DNA of 64,000 nucleotides from contig NZ_SLZF01000001.1 of NCBI RefSeq assembly GCF_004341515.1, forward strand, positions 682,001 to 746,000, in the 5' to 3' direction. Source of the DNA: Allobosea sp. BK604 (GTDB taxonomy: Bacteria > Pseudomonadota > Alphaproteobacteria > Rhizobiales > Beijerinckiaceae). This document shows, one piece after another, positions 29,403-44,518 of the stretch. The stretch's first letter is position 1. Each line of letters begins with the position of its first letter. Made by a program: the position numbers and the translations under genes. The notes beneath the pieces were generated by a model. It saw only the letters and a program-made list of their open reading frames with translations. It did no database searches and was not told the origin of the DNA.

Positions 29403-30719
29403 TCACCTTTCCCTGAACGCCTTGGCGATCTGATCCTTGAGCGGCTTGATGATGTATTCGAGCGGGGTCCGATCCTCGGTCCGGACGAAGACATCGGCCA
29501 GCATGCCCGCCGTGACGCGATGCGGCGCGAGGCGGGCAAACTCGACCGGCGGAACCGTGATGCGGATCGTGTAGAACGCCGCGCCGGTCTGCTGGTCGCG
29601 GCTGGTATCGGCCGAAATGCGCGTCACCGTTCCGGTGAGTTCCGGCGTGGTGCGCTGGTTGAAGGCATGAAGCCTGACCTGCGCCGCATGGCCGAGCGCG
29701 ACCTGGTCGATATCGGGCGGATTGATCCGCGCCTCGACCTGCAGGCTGTCCTCGGCCGGCACGATCAGCATGGCGGGCTCCGCCGGAGAGATCACGCCGC
29801 CGACGGTGTGGACCGCGAGCTGATGCACGAAGCCGGCACTCGGCGCCCGGATCTCGACGCGCTTGAGCTGGTCCTCCGCGGCGATGCGGCGCTCGCTCAA
29901 CTCGGCGGTCTTGCCCTGGATCTCGCGCAGCTCCTTCATCACCTCCTCGCGCAGGCTGTCGTCGATCTGGATGATCTGCAGCTGCGTCTCGGCGATCTTG
30001 CCTTCGGACTGGGCGACGGAGGCGATGAGCTGTCCCTTCTGACCGTCAAGCCTCGCCGTCTCGCGTTCGAGCGCGGCCCTGCGGTTCAGCGAGACCAGGT
30101 TCTTGGCGTAGAGATCATGAACGGCGCCGAGCTCTTCCCTGATCAGCACCGCCTGGCGATCGAGCGCGCTCTGCTGCGCCTTCAAGCCCTCGATCTCGTC
30201 CTGGAGCTGGCCGACCCGCTTGGAGAGCTGCGCCTTCTGGCCGTCGCGCGCGGCCCGGCGTGCCTCGAACAGGCTTGCCTCCGCGCCAACCAGTTCGGCG
30301 ATCTCTGGCTCGCTCATCCGGCTTGCGAGCTCGGGCGCGACGGTCACGCTGTCGCGCTTGTCGCGCTCGGCCTGGAGCCTCGCCCGCCGGGCGGAAAACT
30401 CGTCGAGTTGCTTGACCAGCACCTGGAGATTGGCCCGGGTGACAGTGTCGTCGAGCCGGATCAGCACCGCGTCCTGCTCGACGCGGTCGCCCTCGCGCAC
30501 CTTGAGCTCGCCGACGATGCCACCGGTCGCGTGCTGGATCTTCTTGACATTGCCATCGACGACGAACTGGCCGGATGCCACGACCGCGCCCGCCAGCGTC
30601 GTCGCCACCGCCCAGACCCCGACGGTCCCGGCGAACAGCGCCGCCGCCGCCGTCCCGGCCAGCGTCAGGCTGCGCAGCGAACGCCGGAAATCCGGCTGCC
30701 TTTCATCCGCCGCGCTCAT
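29403..30719 (-). CDS. Type I secretion membrane-fusion protein (HlyD/PrtE family)
   Basis: A 438-residue periplasmic adaptor: one N-terminal membrane anchor (about 20-43), a first half-motif GEVxx-like stretch GGIVGELKVREGDRV near 66-80, a long alpha-helical coiled-coil hairpin (about 95-290), and the C-terminal barrel part with RISADTSRDQQTGAAFYTIR near 385-404. It bridges the ABC exporter and an outer-membrane TolC-type channel. Its ATG overlaps the stop of the exporter gene by four bases. No TolC gene or secreted substrate is visible nearby. Confidence 0.92.
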   Translation of the reverse strand: MSAADERQPDFRRSLRSLTLAGTAAAALFAGTVGVWAVATTLAGAVVASGQFVVDGNVKKIQHATGGIVGELKVREGDRVEQDAVLIRLDDTVTRANLQVLVKQLDEFSARRARLQAERDKRDSVTVAPELASRMSEPEIAELVGAEASLFEARRAARDGQKAQLSKRVGQLQDEIEGLKAQQSALDRQAVLIREELGAVHDLYAKNLVSLNRRAALERETARLDGQKGQLIASVAQSEGKIAETQLQIIQIDDSLREEVMKELREIQGKTAELSERRIAAEDQLKRVEIRAPSAGFVHQLAVHTVGGVISPAEPAMLIVPAEDSLQVEARINPPDIDQVALGHAAQVRLHAFNQRTTPELTGTVTRISADTSRDQQTGAAFYTIRITVPPVEFARLAPHRVTAGMLADVFVRTEDRTPLEYIIKPLKDQIAKAFRER

Positions 30720-32461
30720 GACGCCACCGTCTGGCGCTGCACGCTCGGCATGCCGCCCCGCTTGACGATACGCTGCAGGATCTCGTCCTTCGGGCCCATC
30801 GCCTGGATGCGGCCCTCGGCCATCATCGCGATCTGGTCGACGCCAGCGATCGCGGTCTGCCGATGGGTCACGACGATGACGATGCCGTCGCGCGCCCGCA
30901 CGCCCTTGACCGCCGTCGTCAGGGCCTCGTCGCCATCCTGGTCGAGATTGGAATTGGGCTCGTCGAGCACGACGAGGAACGGATCGCCATAGAGCGCCCG
31001 CGCCAGGCCGATGCGCTGGCGCTGGCCGCCGGAGAGCGAGGCGCCGCCCTCGCCGATGCGGGTGTCGTAGCCATTTTCCAGCTTGAGGATCAGCTCATGC
31101 GCGCCAGCGGCCTGTGCCGCCGCGACGACCGCCTCGTCCGCGGCATCGGGCAGGAAGCGCGCGATATTCTCCGCCACCGTGCCATCGAACAGCTCGATAT
31201 CCTGGGGCAGGTAGCCGATATGGCGGCCGAGCCCGGCCGGGCCCCATTGCTCGAGCGCTGCGCCGTCGAGACGGACCTCGCCCTTGAGCGGACGCCAGAC
31301 CCCGACCAGCGATCGCACCAAGGTCGACTTGCCCGAAGCGCTCGGCCCGACGATGCCGAGCCCCTGGCCGGCTTGGAGCCGAAGCGAAACGCCTTGCAGG
31401 ATCGGCGCCTGGCGGCCGGGCGCAGCGACGATCAGACCATCCGCCGTCAGATCGCGCTTCGGCATGGGCAGGGCGGTGCGCTCGCGCTCGTTGAAGCTCG
31501 GAAGATCGAGCATCTGCTTGAGCCGGGCGACGCCTTCGCGGGCGGCGACGAAGCCGCGCCAATGTGCCACCGCGATCTCGATCGGCGCGAGCGCCCGCGA
31601 GGTCATGATCGAAGCGGCGATCATCGCACCGCCCGAGATCTCGTTGTGCATGGCGAGGTAGGCGCCGAGGCCGAGCACGGCCGATTGCAGCAGCATCCGG
31701 AAGATCTTGGCGAAGGCGCCGAGGCCGCTCACCGCATCCGAACCCGCGAGCCAGTCGCTGACATGGCGCAGATTGATCTCGTGCCATTTGCGCTGGAAGG
31801 CCGGCGCCATGCCCATCGCCGTCAGCGCCTCGGCATTGCGCCGTGCCGCTTCGGCCAGCGCCAGGCGGCCGGTCCCGCTCGCCATCAGCGCCTTGTTCGC
31901 CGCGCGGCTGCCGCGCTCGCTGACATAGGTCAGGATCAGGATGACGACGCCGCCCGCGACTGCGAGCCAGCCGAGCCAGGGATGCAGCAGGAAACAGCCG
32001 GCAAAGAACAGCGGCATCCACGGCATGTCGAACAGAGCCGTCGGCCCCAGCGAGGCGAGGAAGCCGCGAATCTGATCGAGGTCACGGATCGGCTGCAGCA
32101 CCTGCTCGGAGCGCAGCCCGAGTAGCGGCAGGCGCTGCGCCGCAGCGAAGGCTGCAGGCGAAACCTGTTCGTCGAACCGTGCTCCGATCCGCGCCAGCAT
32201 CTTGACCCGGACCGCATCGAGGAAGCCCTGCAGCGCATAGGCCAGGAGCAGCAGCAGCGAGAGCCCGATCAGCGTCGGCACGCTGCGCGAGCTGAGCACC
32301 CGGTCATAGACCTGCAGCATGTAGAACGAGCCGGCCAGCATCAGCACGTTGATGATGCCGGAAAACAATCCGACCGCCATGAACGCTCCGCGGCAGGAGG
32401 CGAGCGCTGAGCCGACGATCGAGCCAGCAGGCGCGGACGTGGAAGCAATACTGCGCGACAA
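30716..32461 (-). CDS. Type I secretion system permease/ATPase (PrtD family)
   Basis: A fused membrane-ATPase exporter subunit of up to 581 residues. The membrane part covers about 25-310 with LFSGIINVLMLAGSFYMLQV near 32-51, usual for PrtD/LapB-type exporters. The ATPase has Walker A GPSASGKST (372-380), signature LSGGQ (476-480) and Walker B with LDEP (499-502). It lacks the N-terminal C39-like domain, so substrates probably carry a C-terminal signal. TTG at 32461 has no ribosome-binding site; ATG at 32380 follows GGAG at good distance but would remove the residues before the first helix. Confidence 0.93.
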   Translation of the reverse strand: MSRSIASTSAPAGSIVGSALASCRGAFMAVGLFSGIINVLMLAGSFYMLQVYDRVLSSRSVPTLIGLSLLLLLAYALQGFLDAVRVKMLARIGARFDEQVSPAAFAAAQRLPLLGLRSEQVLQPIRDLDQIRGFLASLGPTALFDMPWMPLFFAGCFLLHPWLGWLAVAGGVVILILTYVSERGSRAANKALMASGTGRLALAEAARRNAEALTAMGMAPAFQRKWHEINLRHVSDWLAGSDAVSGLGAFAKIFRMLLQSAVLGLGAYLAMHNEISGGAMIAASIMTSRALAPIEIAVAHWRGFVAAREGVARLKQMLDLPSFNERERTALPMPKRDLTADGLIVAAPGRQAPILQGVSLRLQAGQGLGIVGPSASGKSTLVRSLVGVWRPLKGEVRLDGAALEQWGPAGLGRHIGYLPQDIELFDGTVAENIARFLPDAADEAVVAAAQAAGAHELILKLENGYDTRIGEGGASLSGGQRQRIGLARALYGDPFLVVLDEPNSNLDQDGDEALTTAVKGVRARDGIVIVVTHRQTAIAGVDQIAMMAEGRIQAMGPKDEILQRIVKRGGMPSVQRQTVAS

Positions 32462-32922: not shown

Positions 32923-33783
32923 CTAATTGGCGTAGACGAAGAAACCGCGACCCGACTTGCGCCCGAGATAGCCCGCGTCGCACATCTGCTTCAGCAGCGG
33001 GCTCGGACGGAATTTCGGATCGTCGAATCCGTCATGCAGCGTCTCCATGATGTTGCGCACCACGTCGAGACCGATGAGATCGGCGAGCGACAGCGGCCCC
33101 ATCGGATGGTTGGCGCCGAGCTTCATCATCGCATCGACATCCTCTGCCGGCGCGACGCCTTCATGCACGCAATTGATTGCTTCGTTGATCATCGGCACGA
33201 GCACGCGATTGACGACGAAGCCGTAGCTGTCCTTCGAGACATGCGCGGTCTTGCCGAGCGACTCGGTCAGCTTGACGATCGCATCGCAGGTGGCGTCGCT
33301 GGTCTGCAGCGCCCGGATGATCTCGACGAGCTGCATCAGCGGCACCGGATTGAAGAAATGCATGCCGATGATGCGGCTCGGATCCTTCGAGGTCGCCGCC
33401 AGCTTCGTCACCGAGATCGAGGAGGTGTTGGTCGCCAGGATCGCACCGTCGCGGCAGATCGCGTCGAGTTCCCGGATCAGCGTCGCCTTGATCTCGTAAT
33501 TCTCCAGCACGGCCTCGATCACGAGGTCGCATTCGGCGAGATCGCCGATCTCGATGGTCGGCTTGATCCGGCCGAGCGCGGCCTCGCGCTCCTCGGCGCT
33601 GAGCTTGCCCTTGCTGACGAAGCGCTCGAGATTCTTGCCGATCGTCGCCATGCCGCGATCGAGGAATTCCGGCTTCAGGTCGCGCATCGTGACCGCGTAA
33701 CCGGCGGAGGCGCAAAGTTGGGCGATGCCGTTGCCCATGGTGCCGGCGCCGACGACGCCGATGCGAGAAATGCCGGTCGACAT
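32923..33783 (-). CDS. hbd: 3-hydroxybutyryl-CoA dehydrogenase
   Basis: A 286-residue NAD(P)-dependent dehydrogenase of the short single-domain type. The dinucleotide fold opens with IGVVGAGTMGNGIAQLCA (residues 8-25), the catalytic His lies in GMHFFNPVPLMQLVEI (near 140-155), and the C-terminal dimer domain has GFVVNRVLVPMINEAI and NHPMGPLSLADLIGLD. It interconverts (S)-3-hydroxybutyryl-CoA and acetoacetyl-CoA. It is divergent from the PhaC-like/phosphotransacetylase operon, which suggests linked C4-acyl-CoA or polyester metabolism. The frame upstream to 33873 is not part of the gene. Confidence 0.92.
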   Translation of the reverse strand: MSTGISRIGVVGAGTMGNGIAQLCASAGYAVTMRDLKPEFLDRGMATIGKNLERFVSKGKLSAEEREAALGRIKPTIEIGDLAECDLVIEAVLENYEIKATLIRELDAICRDGAILATNTSSISVTKLAATSKDPSRIIGMHFFNPVPLMQLVEIIRALQTSDATCDAIVKLTESLGKTAHVSKDSYGFVVNRVLVPMINEAINCVHEGVAPAEDVDAMMKLGANHPMGPLSLADLIGLDVVRNIMETLHDGFDDPKFRPSPLLKQMCDAGYLGRKSGRGFFVYAN

Positions 33784-34093
33784 TGAGGAATCCCTTCGGA
33801 AGGTCGCACCGCCACTGACTTTACGGCAGCGCAGCCGGCTATTTCGACGATCTATTTTGCGCGGCTGTGACACATCGGTGTCGGAACCGTCACGTGAGCA
33901 CGTTTCGCCCGCTCAGAATTGTTCATCAGCCCGTCATTTGAGCCCTCGATATTGCGCCGCAGCGCGAGAGGCACTGCATCTCGTGCAAACACAGCGACTT
34001 GGGCGTGCCGGCAGCCGACCATGCCAGGGATCCTGGCTCGGTCGTCCTGTCCAGGGCGCTCCGGTGAAGGGCGTTATCGGCCTCGAGCCTTTC
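33784..34093. promoter_or_regulatory. Divergent promoter region of hbd and the DUF3141 operon
   Basis: These 310 bases hold no supported gene. A perfect GACAC-ATCG-GTGTC inverted repeat is at 33869-33882, and the run from 33885 to 33925 is a little less GC-rich, so promoters are probably there. I cannot assign a regulator. Confidence 0.4.
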
Positions 34094-36391
34094 ATGAGCG
34101 AGACATCCATGGATCTGAAAGCAGTAAACGACGCGCTCGCCATGAACCTGGAGAACGCGACCGCGCTGTCGCGCCTGTGGTTCGACCATTCCCGCCGCAT
34201 CGCGGATGAGCAGATCGCGCTCGCCAGCGAGCGCACGGCCAAGGCCTCGTCTGCCTTCACCTTCGCGCCCGGCCTGAATCCCTGGCAGGCCTGGACCGAT
34301 TACGTGACCGATGCCGGCCAGCGCACCGCCCTCGTCCTCGACGTCCTGCGTCAGCGTGGCAATGCCTTCAATGAGCAGGCGGACGGCAATATCCCGCCCG
34401 TTCTCGACTTCGACTACGAACTGGTGATCGACGGTCGCGACCTGCCGCGGCCGGTCAACTATTCGCTCGTCGTGATCACGCCGCCGAAGGGCGTCGCGAT
34501 CGATCCCAAGCGCCGCCCCTTCATGATCGTCGACCCGCGCGCCGGCCATGGCGCCGGCATCGGCGGCTTCAAGCCCGAGAGCCAGGTCGGCGACGCGTTC
34601 GACGAAGGCCATGCCGTCTATTTCGTGATCTTCCGGCAATGGCCGGAGCCCGGCCAGACTCTGGCCGATGTCCGCGACGCCGAGGCCGCCTTCCTCGAAG
34701 AGATCCGCCGCCGCCATCCCGATGTCGAGAAGCCGGTCGTGATCGGCAATTGCCAGGGTGGCTGGGGCTGCATGCTGCTCGCAGCCTCCCATCCCGACAA
34801 GGTCGGCCCGATCGCCATCAACGGCGCCCCGATGGCCTATTGGGCCGGCACGACCGGCAAGAACCCGATGCGCTATACCGGCGGCCGCGTCGGCGGCGTC
34901 TGGCCGGCGATGCTGATGGCCGATCTCGGCAACGGCGTCTTCGACGGCTCGCTGCTGGTGCAGAATTTCGAGACGCTGAATCCGGCCAACACCTACTGGA
35001 AGAAGCTCTACGGCCTGTATTCGAAGGTCGATACCGAGGCCGAGCGCTTCCTCGAATTCGAGCGTTGGTGGGGCGGCTTCTTCATGATGAATGAAGAGGA
35101 GATCCGCTGGATCATCGAGAACCTATTCGTCGGCAACCGCCTCGCCCATGGCCACGCCTATTTCGGCGACGAGCGTATCGACCTCAAGAATATCCGCTCG
35201 CCGATCATCGTCTTCGCCTCGCATGGCGACAACATCACCCCGCCGCAGCAGGCGCTGAACTGGATCGCCGACACCTATCACGACGTCAACGAGATCAAGG
35301 CGCGCGGCCAGCGCATCGTCTATCTGCTGCACGATACGATCGGCCATCTCGGCATCTTCGTCTCCGCCAAGATCGCCGGACGCGAGCATGAGGCGATCAC
35401 CGACACGATGCGCGCGATCGAGGCGCTGCCGCCCGGCCTCTACGAGATGGAGCTGGAGCAGGGCGACGACCGGCTGCACATCAAATTCGCGCCGCGCACC
35501 GTCGAAGACATCATGAAGCTCGACGATGGCCGCAAGGACGAGGAGATGTTCTCGGCCGTGGCCAAGGTCTCCGAGGTCGGCGCGACCGTCTACGAGAACC
35601 TGATGCGTCCCTTCGTGCGCGCCATCGTCAATGACGAGACTGCCAGGCAGTTCTTCAAGACCCGGCCGATGCGGCTGGAGCGCTCGCTGCTCTCCGATCA
35701 GAACCCGCTGCTGGGATCGGTCAAGGCGCTGGCCGAGCAGGCGCGGACCAAGCGCCAGCCCGTCAAGGCCGACAATCCGTTCCTCGCGATGGAGCGGCTG
35801 ATGTCGGACGCGATCGAGCAGAACCTCGATCTCTACCGCGACCTTCGCGACGCGATGCAGGAAATCTCCTTCAACGCCATCTACGGCTCGCCCTTCATGC
35901 GCGCCATCGGCGCCAACGGGCTGGTCGGCCGCGATCAAACCACTGCCGAGAACCTGCTGATGCTACCGGAAATCCGCGCCGCGCTCGACCATATCGAGCA
36001 GGGTGGCGAGGCCGAGGGTATGGTCCGCATGCTCGAGCTCCTGTCGCAGGCGCGCGGCTATGTCCGCCGCTCGCGGCTCGAGCGCGAACTCCAGATCTTC
36101 GCGACCGAGAAGCCCTTCTCGACAATGGACGAGGAGAAGCGCTCCAGGCTCATCCATGAGCAGGCGCTGATCGTGCAGTTCGCGCCGGAAAAGGCCAAGG
36201 CCAGCCTGCCGAAGCTGCTCGACACGGCCAAAGAGCGCGAGCGCGCCCTGGATCTGGTGATGAAGGTCGCCGGGCCGATCGAGACCATGCATCCGAACGC
36301 CCTCGCGCTCTATCGCGAGTTCGAGGCGATGCTCGGACGCCGCGCCAAGGCCGCCCCGGCCGCCAATGACGATGGGCGGCTCTCGGCATAA
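34094..36391 (+). CDS. DUF3141 protein, PHA-synthase-like alpha/beta hydrolase
   Basis: A 765-residue protein taken from ATG 34094; the true start may be ATG 34109. Residues 90-430 form an alpha/beta-hydrolase part. GNCQGGWG at 218-225 is a lipase-type box with Cys220, matching the GxCxG box of polyhydroxyalkanoate synthases; HGDNITPP has Asp379 and TIGHLGIF has His418. The Cys-Asp and Asp-His spacings (159 and 39) are near those of PhaC. The C-terminal 300 residues are helical and unassigned. It leads an operon with a MaoC-phosphotransacetylase, acetate kinase and PPK2. Whether it makes, cuts or transfers an acyl chain is unknown. Confidence 0.82.
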   Translation: MSETSMDLKAVNDALAMNLENATALSRLWFDHSRRIADEQIALASERTAKASSAFTFAPGLNPWQAWTDYVTDAGQRTALVLDVLRQRGNAFNEQADGNIPPVLDFDYELVIDGRDLPRPVNYSLVVITPPKGVAIDPKRRPFMIVDPRAGHGAGIGGFKPESQVGDAFDEGHAVYFVIFRQWPEPGQTLADVRDAEAAFLEEIRRRHPDVEKPVVIGNCQGGWGCMLLAASHPDKVGPIAINGAPMAYWAGTTGKNPMRYTGGRVGGVWPAMLMADLGNGVFDGSLLVQNFETLNPANTYWKKLYGLYSKVDTEAERFLEFERWWGGFFMMNEEEIRWIIENLFVGNRLAHGHAYFGDERIDLKNIRSPIIVFASHGDNITPPQQALNWIADTYHDVNEIKARGQRIVYLLHDTIGHLGIFVSAKIAGREHEAITDTMRAIEALPPGLYEMELEQGDDRLHIKFAPRTVEDIMKLDDGRKDEEMFSAVAKVSEVGATVYENLMRPFVRAIVNDETARQFFKTRPMRLERSLLSDQNPLLGSVKALAEQARTKRQPVKADNPFLAMERLMSDAIEQNLDLYRDLRDAMQEISFNAIYGSPFMRAIGANGLVGRDQTTAENLLMLPEIRAALDHIEQGGEAEGMVRMLELLSQARGYVRRSRLERELQIFATEKPFSTMDEEKRSRLIHEQALIVQFAPEKAKASLPKLLDTAKERERALDLVMKVAGPIETMHPNALALYREFEAMLGRRAKAAPAANDDGRLSA

Positions 36392-36429
36392 GCCGGGGCC
36401 GCGCCAACGATCCGTATAGGAGCGCAACC

Positions 36430-37857
36430 ATGAGTGCTTTGTCGCATCGCAACACGACGTTCGACGAGCTCATCGTCGGACAAACGGCAAGCGTCGAGCG
36501 GCCGGTCACGGCCAACGACCTCTATGTGTTCGCTCACGTCTCGGGCAACACCAACCCGCTGCACATGCCGGGCGCCGATCTCGACAAGGACGGGGCGTCC
36601 GACACCGTAGCGCCCTCGCTCTGGGTCGGCTCGCTCGTCTCCTCGGTGCTGGGCACCATCCTGCCCGGCGCCGGCACGCTCTATCACGGCCAGACCTTCC
36701 GCTTTCCCGGCCGCGCCCTGATGGGCGACCGGCTCACCGTCTCGGTGCGCTGCATCGAGAAGCGTGAGGCGCCGCTCGCCGTGTTCGAGACCCGGGTCGA
36801 GAAGGCCGACGGCACGCTGGTGCTCGAAGGCATTGCCGAGGTCAGCGCCCCCACGCATTCGATCGTGCAGGAGAAGCGCGAGCTGCCGCTGCTCCTGCTC
36901 GACCAACATGATCATTTCGGCGCGCTGGTCGCGCGCTGCCGCCGCCTGCCGCCTATGCCGACCGCGATCGTCTGCCCCGACGATGCCAACTCGCTCGGCG
37001 GCGCCGTGCTCTCGATGCGCGAAGGCCTGATCGAGCCGATCCTGATCGGCTCGCGCGACAAGATCCTGCGCGCGGCCGATGCTGCCGGCGCCGATATCTC
37101 GGCACTGCGGCTGATCGACATCGCCGACCATTCCGAGGCGGCCAGGCAGGCCGTCGCCATGGTCCATGCCCGCGAGGCCCGTGCGGTGATGAAGGGCAAT
37201 GTCCATTCCGACGAGTTGCTCGGCCAGGTCGTCAAGAAGGATGGCGGCCTGCGTGGCTCGCGGCGCATCAGCCATGTCTTCGTGATGGACGCACCGACCA
37301 AGCCGAACCTGCTCTTCATCTCGGACGCGGCGATCAATATCGCGCCGGACCTCACGACCAAGGTCGACATCGTCCAGAACGCGATCGACCTCGCCATCGC
37401 CTGCGGGCTCGCCAAGCCGAAGGTCGGCATCCTCGCCGCCGTCGAGACCGTCAACATCAACATGCCCTCGACGCTCGAGGCGGCCGCGCTCGCCAAGATG
37501 GCCGATCGTGGCCAGATCACCGGCGCGCTCGTCGACGGCCCGCTCGCCATGGACAATGCCGTCGATATCGAGGCGGCCCGCACCAAGGGCATCGTCTCCT
37601 CGGTCGCCGGCCAGGCCGATGTCCTGATCGTGCCGAACCTCGAAGCCGGCAACATGCTCGCCAAGCAGCTCACCTTCGTTGCCCGGGCCGAGGCCGCCGG
37701 CCTCGTCGTCGGCGCGAAGGCGCCGGTGATCCTCACCTCGCGCGCCGATAACGACAAGGCGCGGCTGGCTTCCTGCGCGGTGGCGCAGCTTTACGATTAC
37801 TGGCGGCAGAATGGCGAGCCGCTGGCCTACCAGCCTCTGCTCAAGGCAGCGGAGTAA
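36430..37857 (+). CDS. MaoC-like/phosphate acyltransferase fusion
   Basis: A 475-residue fusion. Residues 1-150 are a MaoC hot-dog domain; residues 160-475 are a phosphate acetyl/butyryltransferase that swaps CoA and phosphate on an acyl group (motifs AVMKGNVHSDELL near 250-262 and DGPLAMDNAVD near 365-375). In the MaoC part the catalytic motif reads SGNTNPLH rather than SGDxNPxH, so the catalytic Asp is Asn and hydratase activity is doubtful. GGAG lies before the ATG. The next gene, seven bases on, is acetate kinase, giving acyl-CoA to acyl-phosphate to ATP. Confidence 0.92.
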   Translation: MSALSHRNTTFDELIVGQTASVERPVTANDLYVFAHVSGNTNPLHMPGADLDKDGASDTVAPSLWVGSLVSSVLGTILPGAGTLYHGQTFRFPGRALMGDRLTVSVRCIEKREAPLAVFETRVEKADGTLVLEGIAEVSAPTHSIVQEKRELPLLLLDQHDHFGALVARCRRLPPMPTAIVCPDDANSLGGAVLSMREGLIEPILIGSRDKILRAADAAGADISALRLIDIADHSEAARQAVAMVHAREARAVMKGNVHSDELLGQVVKKDGGLRGSRRISHVFVMDAPTKPNLLFISDAAINIAPDLTTKVDIVQNAIDLAIACGLAKPKVGILAAVETVNINMPSTLEAAALAKMADRGQITGALVDGPLAMDNAVDIEAARTKGIVSSVAGQADVLIVPNLEAGNMLAKQLTFVARAEAAGLVVGAKAPVILTSRADNDKARLASCAVAQLYDYWRQNGEPLAYQPLLKAAE

Positions 37858-37863
37858 GGCGCA

Positions 37864-39075
37864 ATGTCCGAGCACATCCTCACCGTCAATGCCGGCTCGT
37901 CATCGCTGAAATTCGCCCTGTTCGCGACGTCCAGGCTGGACTGCGTCGCGATCGGCATGATCGACGGCCTCGGCACCGACCCGAACTTCGTGATGAAGGA
38001 CGGCAAGGGCCAGAAGCTGCTCTCCGATCCGCTCGAAGGCGAGCGCTTCGTTGCCGACCACCATGGCGCGCTCAGCACGGTCCTCGACGCGCTGGCGCGG
38101 CAGTTCCCCCAGGCCAGGATCGCCGCCGTCGGCCATCGCGTGGTTCATGGCGGCATGGCCTATTCGGCGCCGGTACTCGTCGATGACGAGATCCTGGAAC
38201 AGCTGACCGGCTTCGTCCCGCTCGCTCCGCTGCATCAGCCGCACAATCTCTCCGGCATCCGGGCGGCGCAGGTCGCCTTCCCCGGCGTGCCGCAGGTCGC
38301 CTGTTTCGACACGGCCTTCCACCGCGCCCATCCCTTCGTCAACGACGCCTTCGCCCTGCCGCGCTCGCTCTATGACGAGGGCGTGCGGCGCTACGGCTTC
38401 CATGGCCTGTCCTACGAATATGTCACCGGCCGCCTCGCCGAGATCGCGCCGTTCCACGCCAAGGGCCGGGTCATTATCTGCCATCTCGGCTCCGGTGCCT
38501 CGATGTGCGCGATCCGCAACGGCTATTCGATCGCCTCGACCATGGGTTTCTCCGCGCTTGACGGCCTGCCGATGGGCACGCGCCCGGGCCAGATCGATCC
38601 GGGCGTCCTGCTCTATCTGATGGACCAGAAGGGCATGGACGCGAAGGCGATCTCGGACCTGCTCTACAAGTCCTCCGGACTGAAGGGCCTCTCCGGCATC
38701 TCCAACGACATGCGCGATCTGGAGGCCTCGGACGATCCGCGCGCGAAGCAGGCGATCGACTATTTCGTCTTCCGGCTGCGTCGTGAGATCGGCGCCATGG
38801 CGGCCGTGCTCGGCGGCCTCGATGCGATTGTCTTCTGCGGAGGCATCGGCGAGAATTCGCGCCTGATCCGTGAATCCGCGCTCGAAGCGATGGAATGGAT
38901 CGGCATCGAGCTCGATCTCGACCGCAACCGGGAGGGCGCCGATGTGATTTCGTCCGATCGGTCGCGGGTCCGGGCTTTCATCATCCGCACCAACGAGGAG
39001 CTGATGATCGCGCGCCACACCCAGCAGCTGCTGACGCCGCAGGCCGCCATCCACCTCGTCAACGCCCAGGCTTGA
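37864..39075 (+). CDS. ackA: Acetate/propionate-family kinase
   Basis: A 403-residue ASKHA-fold kinase that makes ATP and a short-chain acid from the acyl phosphate, or the reverse. NAGSSSLKFALF (residues 8-19), VGHRVVHGG, CFDTAFHRAHP, YGFHGLSYEYV, the nucleotide stretch ICHLGSGASMCAI and FCGGIGEN are all standard and the length is usual. It sits seven bases after the phosphate acyltransferase gene and 36 bases before PPK2, so the ATP it makes or uses may be balanced by polyphosphate. Whether acetate, propionate or butyrate is preferred cannot be told. Confidence 0.95.
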   Translation: MSEHILTVNAGSSSLKFALFATSRLDCVAIGMIDGLGTDPNFVMKDGKGQKLLSDPLEGERFVADHHGALSTVLDALARQFPQARIAAVGHRVVHGGMAYSAPVLVDDEILEQLTGFVPLAPLHQPHNLSGIRAAQVAFPGVPQVACFDTAFHRAHPFVNDAFALPRSLYDEGVRRYGFHGLSYEYVTGRLAEIAPFHAKGRVIICHLGSGASMCAIRNGYSIASTMGFSALDGLPMGTRPGQIDPGVLLYLMDQKGMDAKAISDLLYKSSGLKGLSGISNDMRDLEASDDPRAKQAIDYFVFRLRREIGAMAAVLGGLDAIVFCGGIGENSRLIRESALEAMEWIGIELDLDRNREGADVISSDRSRVRAFIIRTNEELMIARHTQQLLTPQAAIHLVNAQA

Positions 39076-39111
39076 CCTGCAACCAAGTGCCAACTGAATA
39101 GGACAGGTTTT

Positions 39112-40011
39112 ATGACCCCCGATCTGGATCGCATCAAAGCCGAGATCGCCGATAGCTTCGACGAAGAGCTGGAGACGCAGCTCGAAGAGGACCGGCTTGA
39201 CGAACTCGTCGCCCAGGGCCTGGAGCCCGCCGGTGCCACGCTGGATCGCAAGGTCTATTTCCGCGAACTCTTCCGCCTGCAGCATGAGCTCGTCCGGCTG
39301 CAGGACTGGATCCAGTACAAGAAGCTCAAGGTCGTCGTCCTGTTCGAGGGCCGCGACTCCGCTGGCAAGGGCGGCGCGATCAAGCGCGTCACCCAGCGCC
39401 TCAACCCGCGCGTCTGCCGCGTCGTCGCCCTGCCCGCTCCGACCGAGCGCGAGCGCAACCAGTGGTATTTCCAGCGCTATGCGGCGCATCTGCCGACCGC
39501 CGGCGAAATGGTGCTGTTCGACCGCAGCTGGTACAACCGCGCCGGTGTCGAGCGCGTCATGGGCTTCTGCACCCCGGACGAGCTCGAGGAATTCTTCCGC
39601 TCGACCCCGGATTTCGAGCACATGCTCGTGCGCTCCGGCATCATCTTGATCAAGTACTGGTTCTCGATCACCGACGAGGAACAGGAATTCCGCTTCCAGA
39701 TGCGCATCAACGATCCGCTGAAGCAGTGGAAGCTCTCGCCGATGGACCTGGAGAGCCGCGTCCACTGGGAGGACTACACCCACGCCAAGGAAGAGATGCT
39801 GGAGCGGACCCATACCGAGCAGGCGCCCTGGTGGGTCGTGCAGGCGGTCGACAAGAAGCGGGCGCGCCTCAACTGCATCTCGCACCTGCTGGCCCAGATC
39901 CCCTATGAGGACGTTCCGAAGCCCGAAATCGAGCTGCCGGAGCGTGTCCGCCACGCCGACTACCTGCGCAAGCCGGTCCCGGCCGAGATGTACGTGCCGG
40001 AAACCTTCTGA
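39112..40011 (+). CDS. ppk2: Polyphosphate kinase 2
   Basis: A 299-residue single-domain PPK2, which moves phosphate between polyphosphate and nucleoside di- or monophosphates. Walker A FEGRDSAGKGGA is at residues 78-89, Walker B-type FDRSWYNRAGVE near 137-148, and the lid-region Arg pair in RMRINDPLKQWK near 200-211. One-domain length and the DRSWYNR motif fit the class I group. It ends the operon begun by the DUF3141 gene; the combination with a kinase and phosphotransacetylase suggests energy buffering. A hairpin follows the gene. Confidence 0.94.
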   Translation: MTPDLDRIKAEIADSFDEELETQLEEDRLDELVAQGLEPAGATLDRKVYFRELFRLQHELVRLQDWIQYKKLKVVVLFEGRDSAGKGGAIKRVTQRLNPRVCRVVALPAPTERERNQWYFQRYAAHLPTAGEMVLFDRSWYNRAGVERVMGFCTPDELEEFFRSTPDFEHMLVRSGIILIKYWFSITDEEQEFRFQMRINDPLKQWKLSPMDLESRVHWEDYTHAKEEMLERTHTEQAPWWVVQAVDKKRARLNCISHLLAQIPYEDVPKPEIELPERVRHADYLRKPVPAEMYVPETF

Positions 40012-40041
40012 GCGGCCACGTCGCCAATCCGATAGGAGAGA

Positions 40042-40067
40042 GCGGGAGCCCCATTCGGCGCTCCCGC
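40042..40067. terminator. Hairpin between convergent ppk2 and araC genes
   Basis: A perfect 8-bp stem, GCGGGAGC with GCTCCCGC, has a 10-base loop. It lies between the stops of two convergent genes. It lacks a T run on either side, so it may be a weak bidirectional terminator or only a transcript-end stabiliser. Confidence 0.5.
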
Positions 40068-40087
40068 GCTGCGACTTTCCGATTGCG

Positions 40088-41161
40088 TCAGGCCTGCGCC
40101 GAGACGATGGCGCGCTGGCTTGTCCTGATCTCACGCGGCGCTGCACCGAAGCGGCGCCGGAACGACCGGTTGAAATAGGAGAGATCGCCGAAGCCGACGC
40201 CGAAGGCGATTTCGCTGATGCTGGTCTCGAAGGCCTCCGCTGATTGCAGCAGGCGCAGCGCGCGATCCAGCCTGCGCTGCAGCACGAATTCCGAAAAGGT
40301 CGTCTGCTCGTCCTCAAACAGCTTTTGCAGATAGCGCAGGCTGATCCCGTGCCGGTCGGCGATCTGCCGCGCGCCGAGCCCTCGCTCCGTCAACCGGGCT
40401 TCGATGTCCGACTTGATGGCGCTCATCCGGTCGTCCGGACGATGCCTGGGCTGGCCCGGGGGAGCGCTCTCGGGTGACATGATGTTGACGAGGCCGCACA
40501 TGAACTGTCGCGCCAGATCGCAAAGCTCGGGCGTCCGGACCGGCGCCATTCCGCGCAGGAGCGCCGCACCATAGCTCCCGAGCATTTGCAGGGCGTCGTT
40601 GCCGGCGCCGAACACGCGCAGCTCCGCGGCATGCCCACAGGCGCGCTCGCCAATCGCATCGGCGGGCATGACGAGACAATCGAGCCGGCTGATCTGAACA
40701 GGCAACAGGCCGATGCCTGCAAGCTCGGTCAGCAGAATGGCCTCGCGCCCACCCACGATCGCACGCCGGCTGCCGCGGGTCACGACGAGCGCGCCATCGG
40801 CGGGGCGCAGCAGCAGGGCCGAGCCCTCCTCGATCAGGCCCGGCAGCGGCAGCGAAACCGCGGCGCTCGGGGCGAAGAGCGAGACGAGGCCAATATCCGG
40901 CTCGAGCCGCAGCATCGCCCCGGCGCCAAACGGCGCCGGATTGGTCCGGTCGAACACCGTGCGGCGCGCCGCCCTGCCATCGACATGAAGGTCGATATCG
41001 GACTGCGGCATGTCCCTGGACAGGAGCCAGACCGGTCCGCCCTCGCGCGCCATCGAAGCCTGCGGCGTCGGCGCAGGTCGTTGAGCCGCCTCTGGGTCAC
41101 TGCGCCTGAGTCCGCTAGTCACTTCGCATCCGTCCAAGAAATCATCGGACCGATTATGCAA
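40088..41161 (-). CDS. AraC-family transcriptional regulator
   Basis: A regulator of up to 357 residues with an N-terminal cupin-like effector part similar to the AraC-binding-like domain 2 (about 40-230) and a C-terminal double helix-turn-helix (about 250-350), with the second-helix signature IAFGVGFGDLSYFNRSFRRR. The start is unclear: TTG 41161 lacks a ribosome-binding site, GTG 41122 follows GGACGGA and ATG 41053 is another option. It adjoins the siderophore locus and is the likely local activator, possibly with the siderophore as effector as in other AraC siderophore regulators. Confidence 0.85.
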   Translation of the reverse strand: MHNRSDDFLDGCEVTSGLRRSDPEAAQRPAPTPQASMAREGGPVWLLSRDMPQSDIDLHVDGRAARRTVFDRTNPAPFGAGAMLRLEPDIGLVSLFAPSAAVSLPLPGLIEEGSALLLRPADGALVVTRGSRRAIVGGREAILLTELAGIGLLPVQISRLDCLVMPADAIGERACGHAAELRVFGAGNDALQMLGSYGAALLRGMAPVRTPELCDLARQFMCGLVNIMSPESAPPGQPRHRPDDRMSAIKSDIEARLTERGLGARQIADRHGISLRYLQKLFEDEQTTFSEFVLQRRLDRALRLLQSAEAFETSISEIAFGVGFGDLSYFNRSFRRRFGAAPREIRTSQRAIVSAQA

Positions 41162-41339
41162 ACAAGTCCGATGAAATTCAATGCCGACAAAGACTCACCC
41201 AACGAAGATTGGCATGAATCGTAATTTATACCAATTTCAAACTGGAAGATTATTCAGATATATTTCCAAATTTAATCAAGAAAGCCCTCCCCTCTCCTTC
41301 TTGCGAGAGAAGAGAACTTACGAAGACGAGAGGATTAAC

Positions 41340-41423
41340 ATGCGCACGATAGTCTTACCGCTGGCGATTTTTCTGTCTTCTTCCATTCGCGGCGCACGGC
41401 GAAGCTATGGAGCGGCATCGTGA
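41340..41423 (+). pseudogene. Possible remnant of a secreted-protein gene (leader only)
   Basis: ATG 41340 follows GAGAGG at proper distance and begins MRTIVLPLAIF. As written the frame gives a 27-residue peptide. If one T of the TTTTT run near 41368 is removed, the frame reads MRTIVLPLAIFCLLPFAAHG, a clean Sec signal peptide, then runs only a few codons more before a stop. It may be the broken start of a lost secreted or outer-membrane protein, such as a receptor. It overlaps the 3' end of the convergent MFS gene. Tentative. Confidence 0.3.
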
Positions 41424-42565
41424 CCGCGCGGCTGGCCGATAGCGGACAGCACCAGCATGACTGCGATGCCGAGCGCAGCACAAAGCATGAAGGGCGTCTG
41501 CGGCGAGAGCGCGAAGGCGAAGCCGCCGGTCAGCGCGCCAGCACCCTGACCAAGAACGTGCAGGCTGGCGAGCCAGCCTGCGGCAACGGCCTGCTGCTGT
41601 GGCGCAACACGATCGACCAGCCAGGCCGTATAGGCCGGCGTCGCGAGCGCGATCCCGGCGCCGGCGATCACGGCGCCGAACACGAGCATGGCGATCGAGG
41701 GCGCAAGGCCCATCGCGACGCTTCCGAGAGCGAAGGCGCCGAGGCCGATCCGCAGGTTTCGCGCGAGCTTGTTTCCCAGGCGAGGCACGAGGCCGACCTG
41801 CACGGCGATCATGCCGATGGCGACCAGCGCATAGGTTATCCCGCCCCAGCGGGCTGCGGCATGGACGTCAAGTCCGAAGCGCGCCTGCAGGAAGAGGCCG
41901 AGCACCATCTGGATCTGGCCGAAGCCGAGCGTCAGGACGAAACCGATCGCCAGAAGCGGCAAGGCGGCGCGGGCGAGGTCGCGTTTCCGCTGGCTCTGCT
42001 CGCCTTTCTCGGCCGGCGCGACGTCTGGGGCGGCGAGCAGGATGAGCGGCATCGCCACCATGGCCGCGAGCGCGGGCATGAGACCAGCGGCACCGGGCAA
42101 GGTGACGAGCGGACCGAGAACGCGGCCAACGCCGAGTCCGGCGCTGAGGCGGGCCAGGGCGGCAGGGCGCTTCTCCGGAGTGCTCATCCGCACGACCGCC
42201 GCCTGCGCATGCGGCATCACGCCGGCGGCGGCCGCGCTGTAGACGATGCGCGCGAGTGCGAGCATCGCGAAAGCGGCGGCGGCCGGCATGGGGCCGGCCG
42301 CCAGCACACCCAGGAAGAGAAGCTGCGCGCCCGCCATCAGCCAGGCCAGCAGCATGAAACGGCGACGCAGCCGACCCTCGCGATAGCCCCAGGCGGGTGC
42401 GGCAACGAGAAAGGCGAGCGCTCCGAGAAAGCCGATCGCGCCGATCGCCGGCGCCCCCAGGCCCGTCGCGTCCGAGACGATCGGCACCAGCGCCAGCAAT
42501 GCCGATTGGCCGAAGCCGACGGTCGCTGCCATCAGCGAGAGCCCGCTCACCTCTCTGCCTCTCAT
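41405..42565 (-). CDS. MFS transporter, probable siderophore exporter
   Basis: A 386-residue, 12-helix major facilitator. The loop between helices 2 and 3 has GYREGRLRRRFMLLAWL, a degenerate form of the GxxxDrxGRR motif. ATG 42565 follows GGAG at normal distance; the frame extends to 42682 through AT-rich promoter sequence. It is divergent from the first siderophore-synthesis gene, the place where exporters of hydroxamate-citrate siderophores commonly lie, so export of the product is likely. Uptake of the ferric form is a less likely option. Confidence 0.8.
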   Translation of the reverse strand: MRGREVSGLSLMAATVGFGQSALLALVPIVSDATGLGAPAIGAIGFLGALAFLVAAPAWGYREGRLRRRFMLLAWLMAGAQLLFLGVLAAGPMPAAAAFAMLALARIVYSAAAAGVMPHAQAAVVRMSTPEKRPAALARLSAGLGVGRVLGPLVTLPGAAGLMPALAAMVAMPLILLAAPDVAPAEKGEQSQRKRDLARAALPLLAIGFVLTLGFGQIQMVLGLFLQARFGLDVHAAARWGGITYALVAIGMIAVQVGLVPRLGNKLARNLRIGLGAFALGSVAMGLAPSIAMLVFGAVIAGAGIALATPAYTAWLVDRVAPQQQAVAAGWLASLHVLGQGAGALTGGFAFALSPQTPFMLCAALGIAVMLVLSAIGQPRGHDAAP

Positions 42566-42727
42566 GCGCAAATCTCCAAAGAAACCGTCATCATAAAGCC
42601 ATTTATGAATATTCATTCCGTCAATCAATCGCACGACACAGATTTTAATAAATATAAATTCGCATAGATTGGAATGCCTCAAAAATAACTGTGAATATTA
42701 CTTCTGTCGAACTGGCGAGAAAATGAG
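42566..42727. promoter_or_regulatory. Divergent siderophore promoter with repeated palindrome
   Basis: This AT-rich gap between the exporter and first synthetase genes has a perfect 12-bp palindrome ATGAATATTCAT at 42605-42616, and a partial copy GTGAATATTAC at 42691-42701. The shared GAATATT core suggests an operator for the AraC regulator or an iron regulator (Irr, RirA or Fur). I cannot say which. Confidence 0.5.
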
Positions 42728-44518
42728 ATGCTAGAGACAAAAATGGGAACGATTGAGCTCGCCGAGCGAGTATCATCCCGTGCATTTCTACTCAGCCTGA
42801 TGCGGGAATGGCGCGGCTGGTCCATCGAGAGTGAGGTGGCATTGCCTTCGGACTCTGCGCGGCCGCGTCGGGTTCTCAGGTTACCGCTGGCCGGTCGCGA
42901 CATCCGCGTGGCGCTGACCCATGCCTCGCAGGTCGGTTGCCACGGCATCCGCCCGCCCTTCTACGAGATCGGCCCGGATGGCTCGGTGCGCGTCGTCGGC
43001 TTTCCCGAATTGGCGAACCTCGTCGCGTCGGAACCGGACATCGCCGGACCGGATGCAGGCGCGAAGGCGCTCGTCTTCCTGCGCCGCGCGCTCGACAGCC
43101 TCGCGAATGTCGAAGACACGCTGAAGCGTCCCACCCTTGACGAGGTCGTTTTCTCCGGGCGCGATCCCAGCTTCATCGAAGCGGAACAGGCGCTGCGCTT
43201 CGGCCACAATGTCCACCCGACACCACGCAGCCGCGACGAATTCACCCTGGAGGATTCGCGACGCTTCGCAGGCGAATACGGCCGGGGCTTTGCGCTGCAC
43301 TGGTGGTCGGTCTCGCCGCAGATCGTTCTGCAGGGCAGTTCGCGCGAATTGGCGGCATCGGAGATGGCCGCCCGCCTAGCGACCGACGACCCCGTGATGG
43401 AAGCTGCCATTCGCGACCAGGCGGCCAGCGGACGTGTGCTGTTGCCGATGCATCCCTGGCAGGCCTCGCGGCTCATGCTCGATCCGGCGATCGCGCGCCT
43501 GATGAAGGCTGGCCATATCCGCACGCTCGGGCCGGCCGGCTCGCCCTGGTACGCGACCTCGTCGCTGCGCAGCATCTACGCACCGCACGCCGCCTGGATG
43601 CTGAAGATGTCGCTGAGCCTGCGGCTGACCAATTCGCAGCGCCTCATCGAGCCCTATGAATGCGAGCGCGGGATCGAGATCGACAAGCTGCTGGCCGGGG
43701 CGGTTGGGCAGAGGATCGCGACGCAATTCCCGAGCTTCAAGGTCATGGGCGAGCCGGGCTATCTCGCCCTGCGCGACGAGGACGGCGCGCCCTTGCGCTC
43801 GACTATCGTCGTCTTCCGCGACAATCCTTTTGGCAGCGGGGAAAGCCCCTCGGCGGCAGTGCTCGCCGGGCTGTGCGAGATCGGCCCCGATGGCCGCGAG
43901 AGCGCGCTCGCAGCCATTGTCAGGCGCATTGCTGCACGTGAGGGCAGCGATCCCGGAGAGATCGCCCTGCCCTGGTTCGAGCGCTTCCTGCAGATCGTCG
44001 CCATGCCCTTGCTTGGCGTCCAGGCCGATTACGGCCTCCTCTTCGGCGCGCATCAGCAGAATATCGTCGTCGGCCTCGACGACGGCTGGCCCGCCCGGCT
44101 GCACTTCCGCGACTGCCAGGGCACCGGCTATGTCCGCGAATTCCTGCCGAGCCTTTCCGAGCTGGCGCCCGACGTGCGGCTCGAGGCCGGGCATATCTTC
44201 GATACCGGCTACGCGGCCAGGCTCGCCGGCTACTACCTCATCGTCAACAGCGTGTTCTCGGTCATCGGCGCGCTCGCGATCGCCCGCCTCGCCACGGAGA
44301 AGCGCCTGCTCGCGGCCCTGCGCATCGCGCTCTCGGAGCTCGCCGCGCAGCCGCTCCGCGACCGCACTTGCCTCGACTACCTCCTCACCTCGCCAACCCT
44401 GGTCAGCAAAGGCAACTTCATGATCTGCTTCCGCAACATCAACGAAAACACCGATGTGACGGACCCGCTCGCCGGCTATGTCGAGTTGCCGAACCCGATC
44501 CCGGGAGCGCGGTCATGA
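42728..44518 (+). CDS. NIS siderophore synthetase (IucA-like)
   Basis: A 596-residue IucA/IucC-family synthetase that joins citrate or a citryl intermediate to an amine using ATP via an adenylate. Motifs GHNVHPTPRSRDEF (near 159-172), LLPMHPWQ (near 238-245) and the C-terminal GAHQQNIVVGLDDG with FRDCQGTGY (near 439-465) form the active site. First of four genes that overlap by four bases each, in the iucA-iucB-iucC-iucD order of aerobactin and related to the rhizobactin 1021 genes. ATG 42728 is used; ATG 42743 is possible. Confidence 0.92.
   Translation: MLETKMGTIELAERVSSRAFLLSLMREWRGWSIESEVALPSDSARPRRVLRLPLAGRDIRVALTHASQVGCHGIRPPFYEIGPDGSVRVVGFPELANLVASEPDIAGPDAGAKALVFLRRALDSLANVEDTLKRPTLDEVVFSGRDPSFIEAEQALRFGHNVHPTPRSRDEFTLEDSRRFAGEYGRGFALHWWSVSPQIVLQGSSRELAASEMAARLATDDPVMEAAIRDQAASGRVLLPMHPWQASRLMLDPAIARLMKAGHIRTLGPAGSPWYATSSLRSIYAPHAAWMLKMSLSLRLTNSQRLIEPYECERGIEIDKLLAGAVGQRIATQFPSFKVMGEPGYLALRDEDGAPLRSTIVVFRDNPFGSGESPSAAVLAGLCEIGPDGRESALAAIVRRIAAREGSDPGEIALPWFERFLQIVAMPLLGVQADYGLLFGAHQQNIVVGLDDGWPARLHFRDCQGTGYVREFLPSLSELAPDVRLEAGHIFDTGYAARLAGYYLIVNSVFSVIGALAIARLATEKRLLAALRIALSELAAQPLRDRTCLDYLLTSPTLVSKGNFMICFRNINENTDVTDPLAGYVELPNPIPGARS

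Follow-up and report, generated by a model that had tools for sequence, protein, structure and literature searches.

Two described gene sets resemble the DUF3141 operon studied here. For S. meliloti, Summers et al. reportedly discussed in 1999 an orfA-pta-ackA-fabI set, which they are said to have viewed in terms of phosphate stress and not of polyhydroxybutyrate (PHB). Its order matches the DUF3141-phosphotransacetylase (PTA)-acetate kinase (ACK)-FabI order that we found on S. meliloti pSymA and NGR234 pNGR234b, and we infer that orfA is a DUF3141 gene. In B. diazoefficiens, a hypothetical gene (blr3456) is followed by pta (blr3457), ackA (blr3458) and blr3459 in an operon that is derepressed in a phaR mutant, according to the accessible part of PMC10888616; the gene order suggests that blr3456 encodes DUF3141. 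The DUF3141 family (PF11339) has been placed in a polyhydroxyalkanoate (PHA) polymerase-like cluster (excerpt of PMC11878206), and its likeness to the PHA synthase PhaC is thus already in print (excerpts of PMC11878206 and PMC8601165). As a separate link to PHA, P. umsongensis GO16 carries a DUF3141 gene within a phaCAB-AraC-DUF3141-phasin-phaR cluster (excerpt of PMC8601165). Here we analyzed a 64,000-nucleotide stretch of Allobosea sp. BK604 DNA (contig NZ_SLZF01000001.1, positions 682,001 to 746,000; the window), in which a DUF3141 gene lies in an operon with genes for a phosphotransacylase and an acetate-family kinase.

We propose, with a probability of roughly 0.4, that DUF3141 is a granule-associated acyl-transfer enzyme of a PHB-controlled module, which would convert the thioester energy of PHB-derived acyl groups into ATP. 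The analysis shows predicted fold and triad, gene linkage, co-occurrence and operator enrichment; we infer the direction of the reaction and its substrates. In the window, the DUF3141 open reading frame (ORF; 34094..36391, + strand, 765 aa, PF11339 profile) is followed on the same strand by a MaoC-like domain fused to a phosphotransacylase (36430..37857), an acetate/propionate-family kinase of 403 aa (37864..39075) and a PPK2 polyphosphate kinase (39112..40011, TIGR03707). The intergenic gaps are 38, 6 and 36 bases, and a scan of the operon region (33800-41300) revealed no terminator-like site. Divergent from DUF3141 lies a 3-hydroxybutyryl-CoA dehydrogenase gene (32923..33873, − strand), which, like the fusion and the kinase, was named from profile matches; judged from the N-terminus, its true start is likely near 33783. 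A preliminary description of this DNA had given the same layout, and its observation is confirmed. Because a locus of Rhizobiales bacterium 62-17 (L034, 82% identity) keeps all five genes in identical order, the arrangement is more than chance.

The DUF3141 protein scored 796.1 bits against PF11339 (cut-off 29.7). Its translation contains C220 in GNCQGG, D379 in HGDNITPP and H418 in TIGHLG, at spacings of 159 and 39 residues, exactly as previously read. The protein had also been called PhaC-like, and fold prediction bore this out. An AlphaFold2 model built from 80 sequences (mean pLDDT 89.6, pTM 0.87) was compared with solved structures using Foldseek, and the best 14 matches were all PhaC chains. 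After re-alignment of 1000 chains, the top seven entries were PhaC (Z 22.4-24.6; 295-316 residues aligned, rmsd 3.4-4.2), and the best non-PhaC structure was gastric lipase (Z 20.7). An hhalign comparison of 11 PhaC with 80 DUF3141 sequences gave E 1.4e-7 (a single comparison) over 385 columns. It paired GYCVGG with GNCQGG, EDHIAP with GDNITP and GSGHIAG with TIGHLG, which placed all three DUF3141 triad residues on the PhaC triad. C220, D379 and H418 were invariant in 80/80 DUF3141 sequences and in 20/20 of an earlier set, which did not include L029. According to the model, the DUF3141 domain has the PhaC fold; by alignment, C220-D379-H418 is a Cys-Asp-His triad matching the PhaC nucleophile, acid and base. 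The 80-row alignment was made without the near-duplicates L053 and L110 and the split-frame L064 (of 82) and without L001, L005, L021 and L022; L142, L147 and L150-L152, which had no full frame by the filter used, were excluded from the PhaC profile.

Class I and III PhaC share with DUF3141 the fold domain, the aligned triad and a common segment, N(R)LxxGExxxxxxxxDLxxxxxPI. Unlike PhaC, DUF3141 has GNCQGG and not GYCxGG as its nucleophile box (N219 and Q221 in 80/80 sequences), GDNI where PhaC has EDHI (N380 in 71/80), a glycine-rich DPRAGHGxGIGG segment, a weakly phasin-like N-terminus and a helical C-terminus. When solved structures were searched by sequence, the best match was only a weak one to PHA synthase (E 0.003 and 0.0036), and PhaC_N (PF07167) was not among the profile matches of the protein at E 0.01. 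By profile, DUF3141 is PhaC-like but not PhaC, because its scores against the class III PhaC model TIGR01836 (42.8 bits, cut-off 365.3) and the PhaC model TIGR01838 (23.7 bits, cut-off 622.65) are far under the cut-offs. The closest fold and the weak TIGR01836 match would both suit a PHA synthase variant, with kinase and phosphotransacylase running in reverse and ATP-activating free (hydroxy)acids for polymerization. An engineered Buk-Ptb-PhaEC route is said to activate free acids for PHA synthesis in this way. However, the score lies far under the PhaC cut-off, all 24 DUF3141 genomes sampled (see below) already have PhaC, and a synthase would have no need for FabI; we consider this alternative unlikely.

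Four regions were delimited in the protein: a helical, weakly phasin-like N-terminus (residues 1-96), the predicted PhaC-fold alpha/beta-hydrolase domain with C220-D379-H418 (about 97-445), a helical region (483-610) and a helical C-terminal domain, possibly TerB-like (about 636-752; window 36000-36350). The two termini were analyzed in 44 rows each. Phasin was the commonest family match of the N-termini (7/44 at E 0.1, best E 3e-4); the window copy scored 16.9 bits against PF09361 (Phasin_2), under the cut-off of 24.9. When the C-terminal domain was predicted alone, 2h5n was the only prominent match (Z 9.0, 108 residues; other rows at most 4.5), and we take it to be TerB-like; Foldseek alone gave E 0.43. 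The TerB assignment is tentative, and the role of such a domain within a PHB enzyme is unexplained.

Linkage was surveyed in the 80 loci most similar to the window DUF3141, out of at least 590, with flanks of up to 10 kb, some of which were cut by contig ends. To offset the similarity bias, a phylum sample of 299 evenly drawn genomes was added, in which some stretches were also cut and L175 and L176 seem to duplicate L055 and L076. Among the 80 near-relative loci, PTA was found in 37, ACK in 37, both in 35 and FabI of the PRK07533 type in 40; 52 had at least one of the three. A CoA-transferase subunit was present in 12-13 and an HBDH-cluster dehydrogenase in 13 (6 of them above 390 bits). The phylum sample contained DUF3141 in 24/299 genomes (E 1e-60). 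Its 24 loci, from 23 other genomes, had PTA, ACK and FabI together in 16 fetched stretches and FabI in 17 (one with FabI alone); the FabI of L161 lies at a distance of about 6 kb. Members of the Alpha-, Beta- and Gammaproteobacteria thus share a linkage of DUF3141 with genes for a phosphotransacylase, an acetate-family kinase and a FabI-type enoyl reductase. The order is not fixed: the PTA-ACK pair can precede or follow DUF3141 or diverge from it, and FabI can lie to its left or right. This variation argues that selection on function, rather than an inherited neighborhood, keeps these cassette genes together.

The window copy differs from the rest of the family in that it adds PPK2 and the MaoC fusion and is without FabI. 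The preliminary description had taken DUF3141, PTA, ACK and PPK2 as a set and had suggested that the operon could release or transfer acyl units from a polyester or acyl-CoA and bank the energy as ATP and polyphosphate. The first three genes do travel together (35/80 and 16/24), but PPK2 was found within the fetched flanks of only 4/80 near-relative and 1/24 phylum-sample loci, and FabI is the regular partner in its stead. Since PPK2 is so rarely near DUF3141, polyphosphate banking is unsupported as a general role, and the interpretation is supported in part: the PhaC-like fold with its aligned triad and the links to PHB and to PTA plus ACK stand, the polyphosphate step does not. In favor of polyphosphate banking, PPK2 is present in the window operon and in Rhizobiales bacterium 62-17; it also adjoins the L069 cassette and lies no more than 10 kb away in L040 and L071. 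The window PPK2 scored 374.2 bits against TIGR03707 (cut-off 301.8). PPK2 enzymes of this class favor NTP synthesis from polyphosphate. The genome has three further PPK2 genes, and we give the polyphosphate-banking form a very slim chance.

The Allobosea sp. BK604 genome (7.6 Mb, 24 contigs) contains a second DUF3141 copy on contig C9, in the order DUF3141-PTA-ACK-FabI, together with one PhaC_N match (PF07167, on contig C5), one PhaR, two PhaZ and four PPK2. Several side observations concern DUF3141 copies elsewhere. In Methylocapsa aurea (L074) and M. acidiphila (L104), a PTA-ACK pair lies between two DUF3141 genes that point toward each other. On Rhizobium plasmids, 10 Rhizobium rows among the 30 matches listed align with DUF3141 as two separate segments. 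A copy with in-frame stops is present in five genomes (G013, G080, G082, G120 and G348); from these two-piece matches and stops, the gene seems to be decaying in some lineages. The ACK match of the S. meliloti strain examined is divided between two frames. Small plasmids can carry parts of the cassette: on the Methylorubrum extorquens DM4 plasmid p2METDI (L136; 38,579 bases, typed as mobilizable), fabI-DUF3141 precedes a MaoC-type frame that is truncated where the record ends.

DUF3141 and PHA synthase co-occur. PhaC_N was detected in 24/24 DUF3141 genomes and in 134/275 others (158/299 overall; Fisher 1e-7), the DUF3141 genomes spanning 17 genera and not being independent. Outside the class of the window, PhaC was present in 8/8 DUF3141 genomes versus 47/178 (p 4e-5). 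Within the sample examined, DUF3141 occurs only in genomes with a PHA synthase.

A third link to PHB comes from predicted regulatory sites. The PHB-binding repressor PhaR recognizes YGCRNYGCR-type palindromes (accessible part of PMC12542648). We scanned for the core TGCRNYGCA; the upstream counts rest on estimated start codons. In the window, a predicted PhaR-operator core, TGCGCCGCA (within ATATTGCGCCGCAGCGC; 33953..33961, + strand), lies 141 bases before the DUF3141 start. It is kept in Rhizobiales bacterium 62-17 and falls inside the block best conserved with that locus (33922-33962). The C9 cassette has a predicted core, TTGTGCACTGCAC, upstream of its DUF3141 frame (L130:6996). The intracellular PHB depolymerase PhaZ (PF06850) resembles DUF3141 in its link to PHB and in that both phaZ frames of this genome have a PhaR-type core at the 5' end; unlike DUF3141, it belongs to another family, and its two copies lie elsewhere. 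After removal of near-duplicates (83 reduced to 75), the core was present in 18/75 DUF3141 upstreams of 300 bases, compared with a mean of 3.6 (maximum 8) in 100 dinucleotide shuffles and with 21/363 upstream regions of other genes from these loci. Seven control palindromes occurred in 0-2 DUF3141 upstreams each, near or below chance. At cassette operon starts, the core was found in 29/79 cases versus 23/360 control upstreams (Fisher 3e-11), in a set that retains related sequences and lacks one of the 80 loci, which had no usable upstream. In the phylum draw, which has no control set, 6/24 DUF3141 frames had a core within -400 to +240 of the frame start. Predicted PhaR-type operators are thus enriched at DUF3141 cassette promoters; this enrichment is new here. 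The published B. diazoefficiens data agree in part with PhaR control, as blr3456 is up 7.2-fold in the phaR mutant (accessible part of PMC10888616).

Other promoter signals were also scanned. With 3 mismatches allowed, no Pho box was found near the operon in a scan of the window. A degenerate Pho-box-like site, TGTTCATCAGCCCGTCAT (33920..33937, + strand), has 4 mismatches, and the aligned site in Rhizobiales bacterium 62-17 has 2. Ten bases after it lies a possible -10 element, GATATT (33948..33953, + strand), which overlaps the predicted PhaR core by one base and is conserved in the same relative. Across loci, Pho-like sites with at most 3 mismatches were found at 18/79 operon starts versus 17/360 controls. 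These sites, and the family of FabI, could point to lipid or fatty-acid remodeling in phosphate starvation, in which FabI and the acyl-phosphate enzymes would recycle membrane acyl chains and DUF3141 would be an acyltransferase. The PhaR operators, the co-occurrence with PhaC and the short-chain families of the transacylase and kinase speak against such a role, which we regard as highly unlikely. FNR/FixK sites were enriched at operon starts (12/79 versus 16/360 controls), but five of them are near-identical. They were not kept as a general signal and are retained only as support in NGR234, where a perfect box precedes the earliest in-frame start-type codons by about 80 bases, and in S. meliloti, whose box has 1 mismatch. 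NGR234 pta and ackA are up 118-228-fold in PHB-containing bacteroids (accessible part of PMC3732241), and a distant DNA search of pNGR234b gave one PTA place, that of the cassette. Two further candidates were dropped: a periodic array at about 33865-33900, whose aligned part (from 33874) is poorly kept in Rhizobiales bacterium 62-17, and NtrC/sigma-54-like sites (6/83 upstreams, 5.8 hits expected).

In the acyl-transfer reading proposed above, C220 would take (R)-3-hydroxyacyl groups from PHB and hand them to CoA (thiolytic depolymerization). The acyl-CoA could be used directly, the transacylase making an acyl-phosphate and the kinase a free acid plus ATP. It could instead pass through crotonyl-CoA to butyryl-CoA, with the FabI-type enzyme as an NADH sink, or be oxidized to acetyl-CoA via 3-hydroxybutyryl-CoA dehydrogenase, before formation of the acyl-phosphate. 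Stored PHB would thereby supply ATP under limited respiration or phosphate. The window copy adds PPK2, and any FabI would come from the second cassette, on C9. In the FabI-type reductase, the catalytic Tyr-x6-Lys is invariant in 61/61 rows, and the MaoC-phosphotransacylase fusion scored 639.6 bits against the bifunctional model PRK08190 (cut-off 282). A wider version is doubtful: an inducible "storage fermentation" in many PHB-storing Proteobacteria, in which thiolysis by DUF3141, redox balance by FabI to butyryl-CoA and a C4 transacylase plus kinase would yield butyrate (and acetate) and ATP, so that aerobes and bacteroids could live off PHB when oxygen or phosphate is short.

A number of points weigh against the acyl-transfer reading. 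Neither FabI, PTA nor ACK was found in the flanks of 28/80 near-relative loci, and 8/24 phylum-sample loci lacked both PTA and ACK (FabI was present in one of the eight; two, G082 and G348, are DUF3141 frames with in-frame stops). The strict PhaR core is missing at 50/79 operon starts, at all nine of L158-L166 and in the cassette promoters of S. meliloti and NGR234. Because PhaC is nearly universal within the class of the window (103/113), the 16/16 DUF3141 genomes there are uninformative (p 0.35) and most of the weight of the DUF3141-PhaC co-occurrence is class background. The PhaC fold would fit polymerization as well as release. As for the MaoC domain, active MaoC (R)-hydratases carry SGDxNPLH with a catalytic Asp-His dyad; the window domain reads SGNTNPLH, with Asn in place of the catalytic Asp, and among 37 rows this position is Asn in 29, Asp in 6 and unaligned in 2. 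The own C9 transacylase and two rhizobial ones show the transacylase alone. The crotonyl-CoA step therefore lacks a clear source. Because of its Asn, the MaoC domain of the window copy was dropped as a required (R)-3HB-CoA dehydratase. In the literature, blr3456 is not among the electrophoretic mobility shift assay targets named in the accessible part of PMC10888616, and the S. meliloti PhaR paper gave no match for acetate or phosphotransacetylase. No enzyme assay was found among the literature matches listed. Nor did these matches, from a search that most subscription journals lay outside, hold a tested DUF3141 reaction, a link of DUF3141-PTA-ACK-FabI with PHB, or the FabI-containing cassette with PhaR operators as a family-wide pattern. 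The preliminary description had held that DUF3141 has no assigned reaction. This is true of the papers naming DUF3141 that were found, except that a Jeongeupia DUF3141 is labeled PHB depolymerase, an annotation without assay (accessible part of PMC8050969).

The remaining points concern acetyl substrates. The transacylase meets the "phosphate acetyltransferase" model PRK11890 (430.7 bits, cut-off 413) and misses phosphate butyryltransferase TIGR02706 (301.7 bits, cut-off 410.5) as well as classical Pta TIGR00651 (63.8 bits, cut-off 311.2). The PRK11890 score slightly lowers the probability of the C4 version. The S. meliloti orfA-pta-ackA-fabI set was also reportedly tied to the activities of acetate kinase and phosphotransacetylase, that is, to acetyl substrates. 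In B. diazoefficiens, unlike in the acyl-transfer reading, pta and ackA are treated as acetate metabolism (accessible part of PMC10888616), and such is also the published view of the NGR234 genes (accessible part of PMC3732241). The operon could accordingly serve acetyl-phosphate and acetate overflow, with PTA and ACK making ATP from acetyl-CoA at low oxygen or phosphate and DUF3141 acting as a granule-tied thioesterase, acyl carrier or regulator, and the Pho-like sites would suit this. However, overflow leaves FabI, the PhaC-fold partner and the PhaR operators unexplained, and the transacylase scores far lower against TIGR00651 than against TIGR02706; we hold it to be rather unlikely.

The operon is adjoined by a siderophore-type set at 40088-44518, comprising an AraC regulator (− strand), an MFS transporter (− strand) and an IucA/IucC synthetase (+ strand); the closest model of the regulator is RhrA, at 131.9 bits and below the cut-off of 500. 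At 29403-32461 (− strand), two adjoining ORFs, named from their translations, read as a membrane-fusion protein and an ABC exporter, a putative pair for type I secretion.

With three links to PHB, namely fold, genome co-occurrence and regulator sites, the widespread DUF3141 family gains a concrete and testable function. If the energy-conserving reading is true, it would explain the strong pta and ackA induction of the cassette in PHB-holding nodule bacteroids, and the module would offer a way out of PHB storage that yields ATP, of relevance to nitrogen fixation and bioplastic production.

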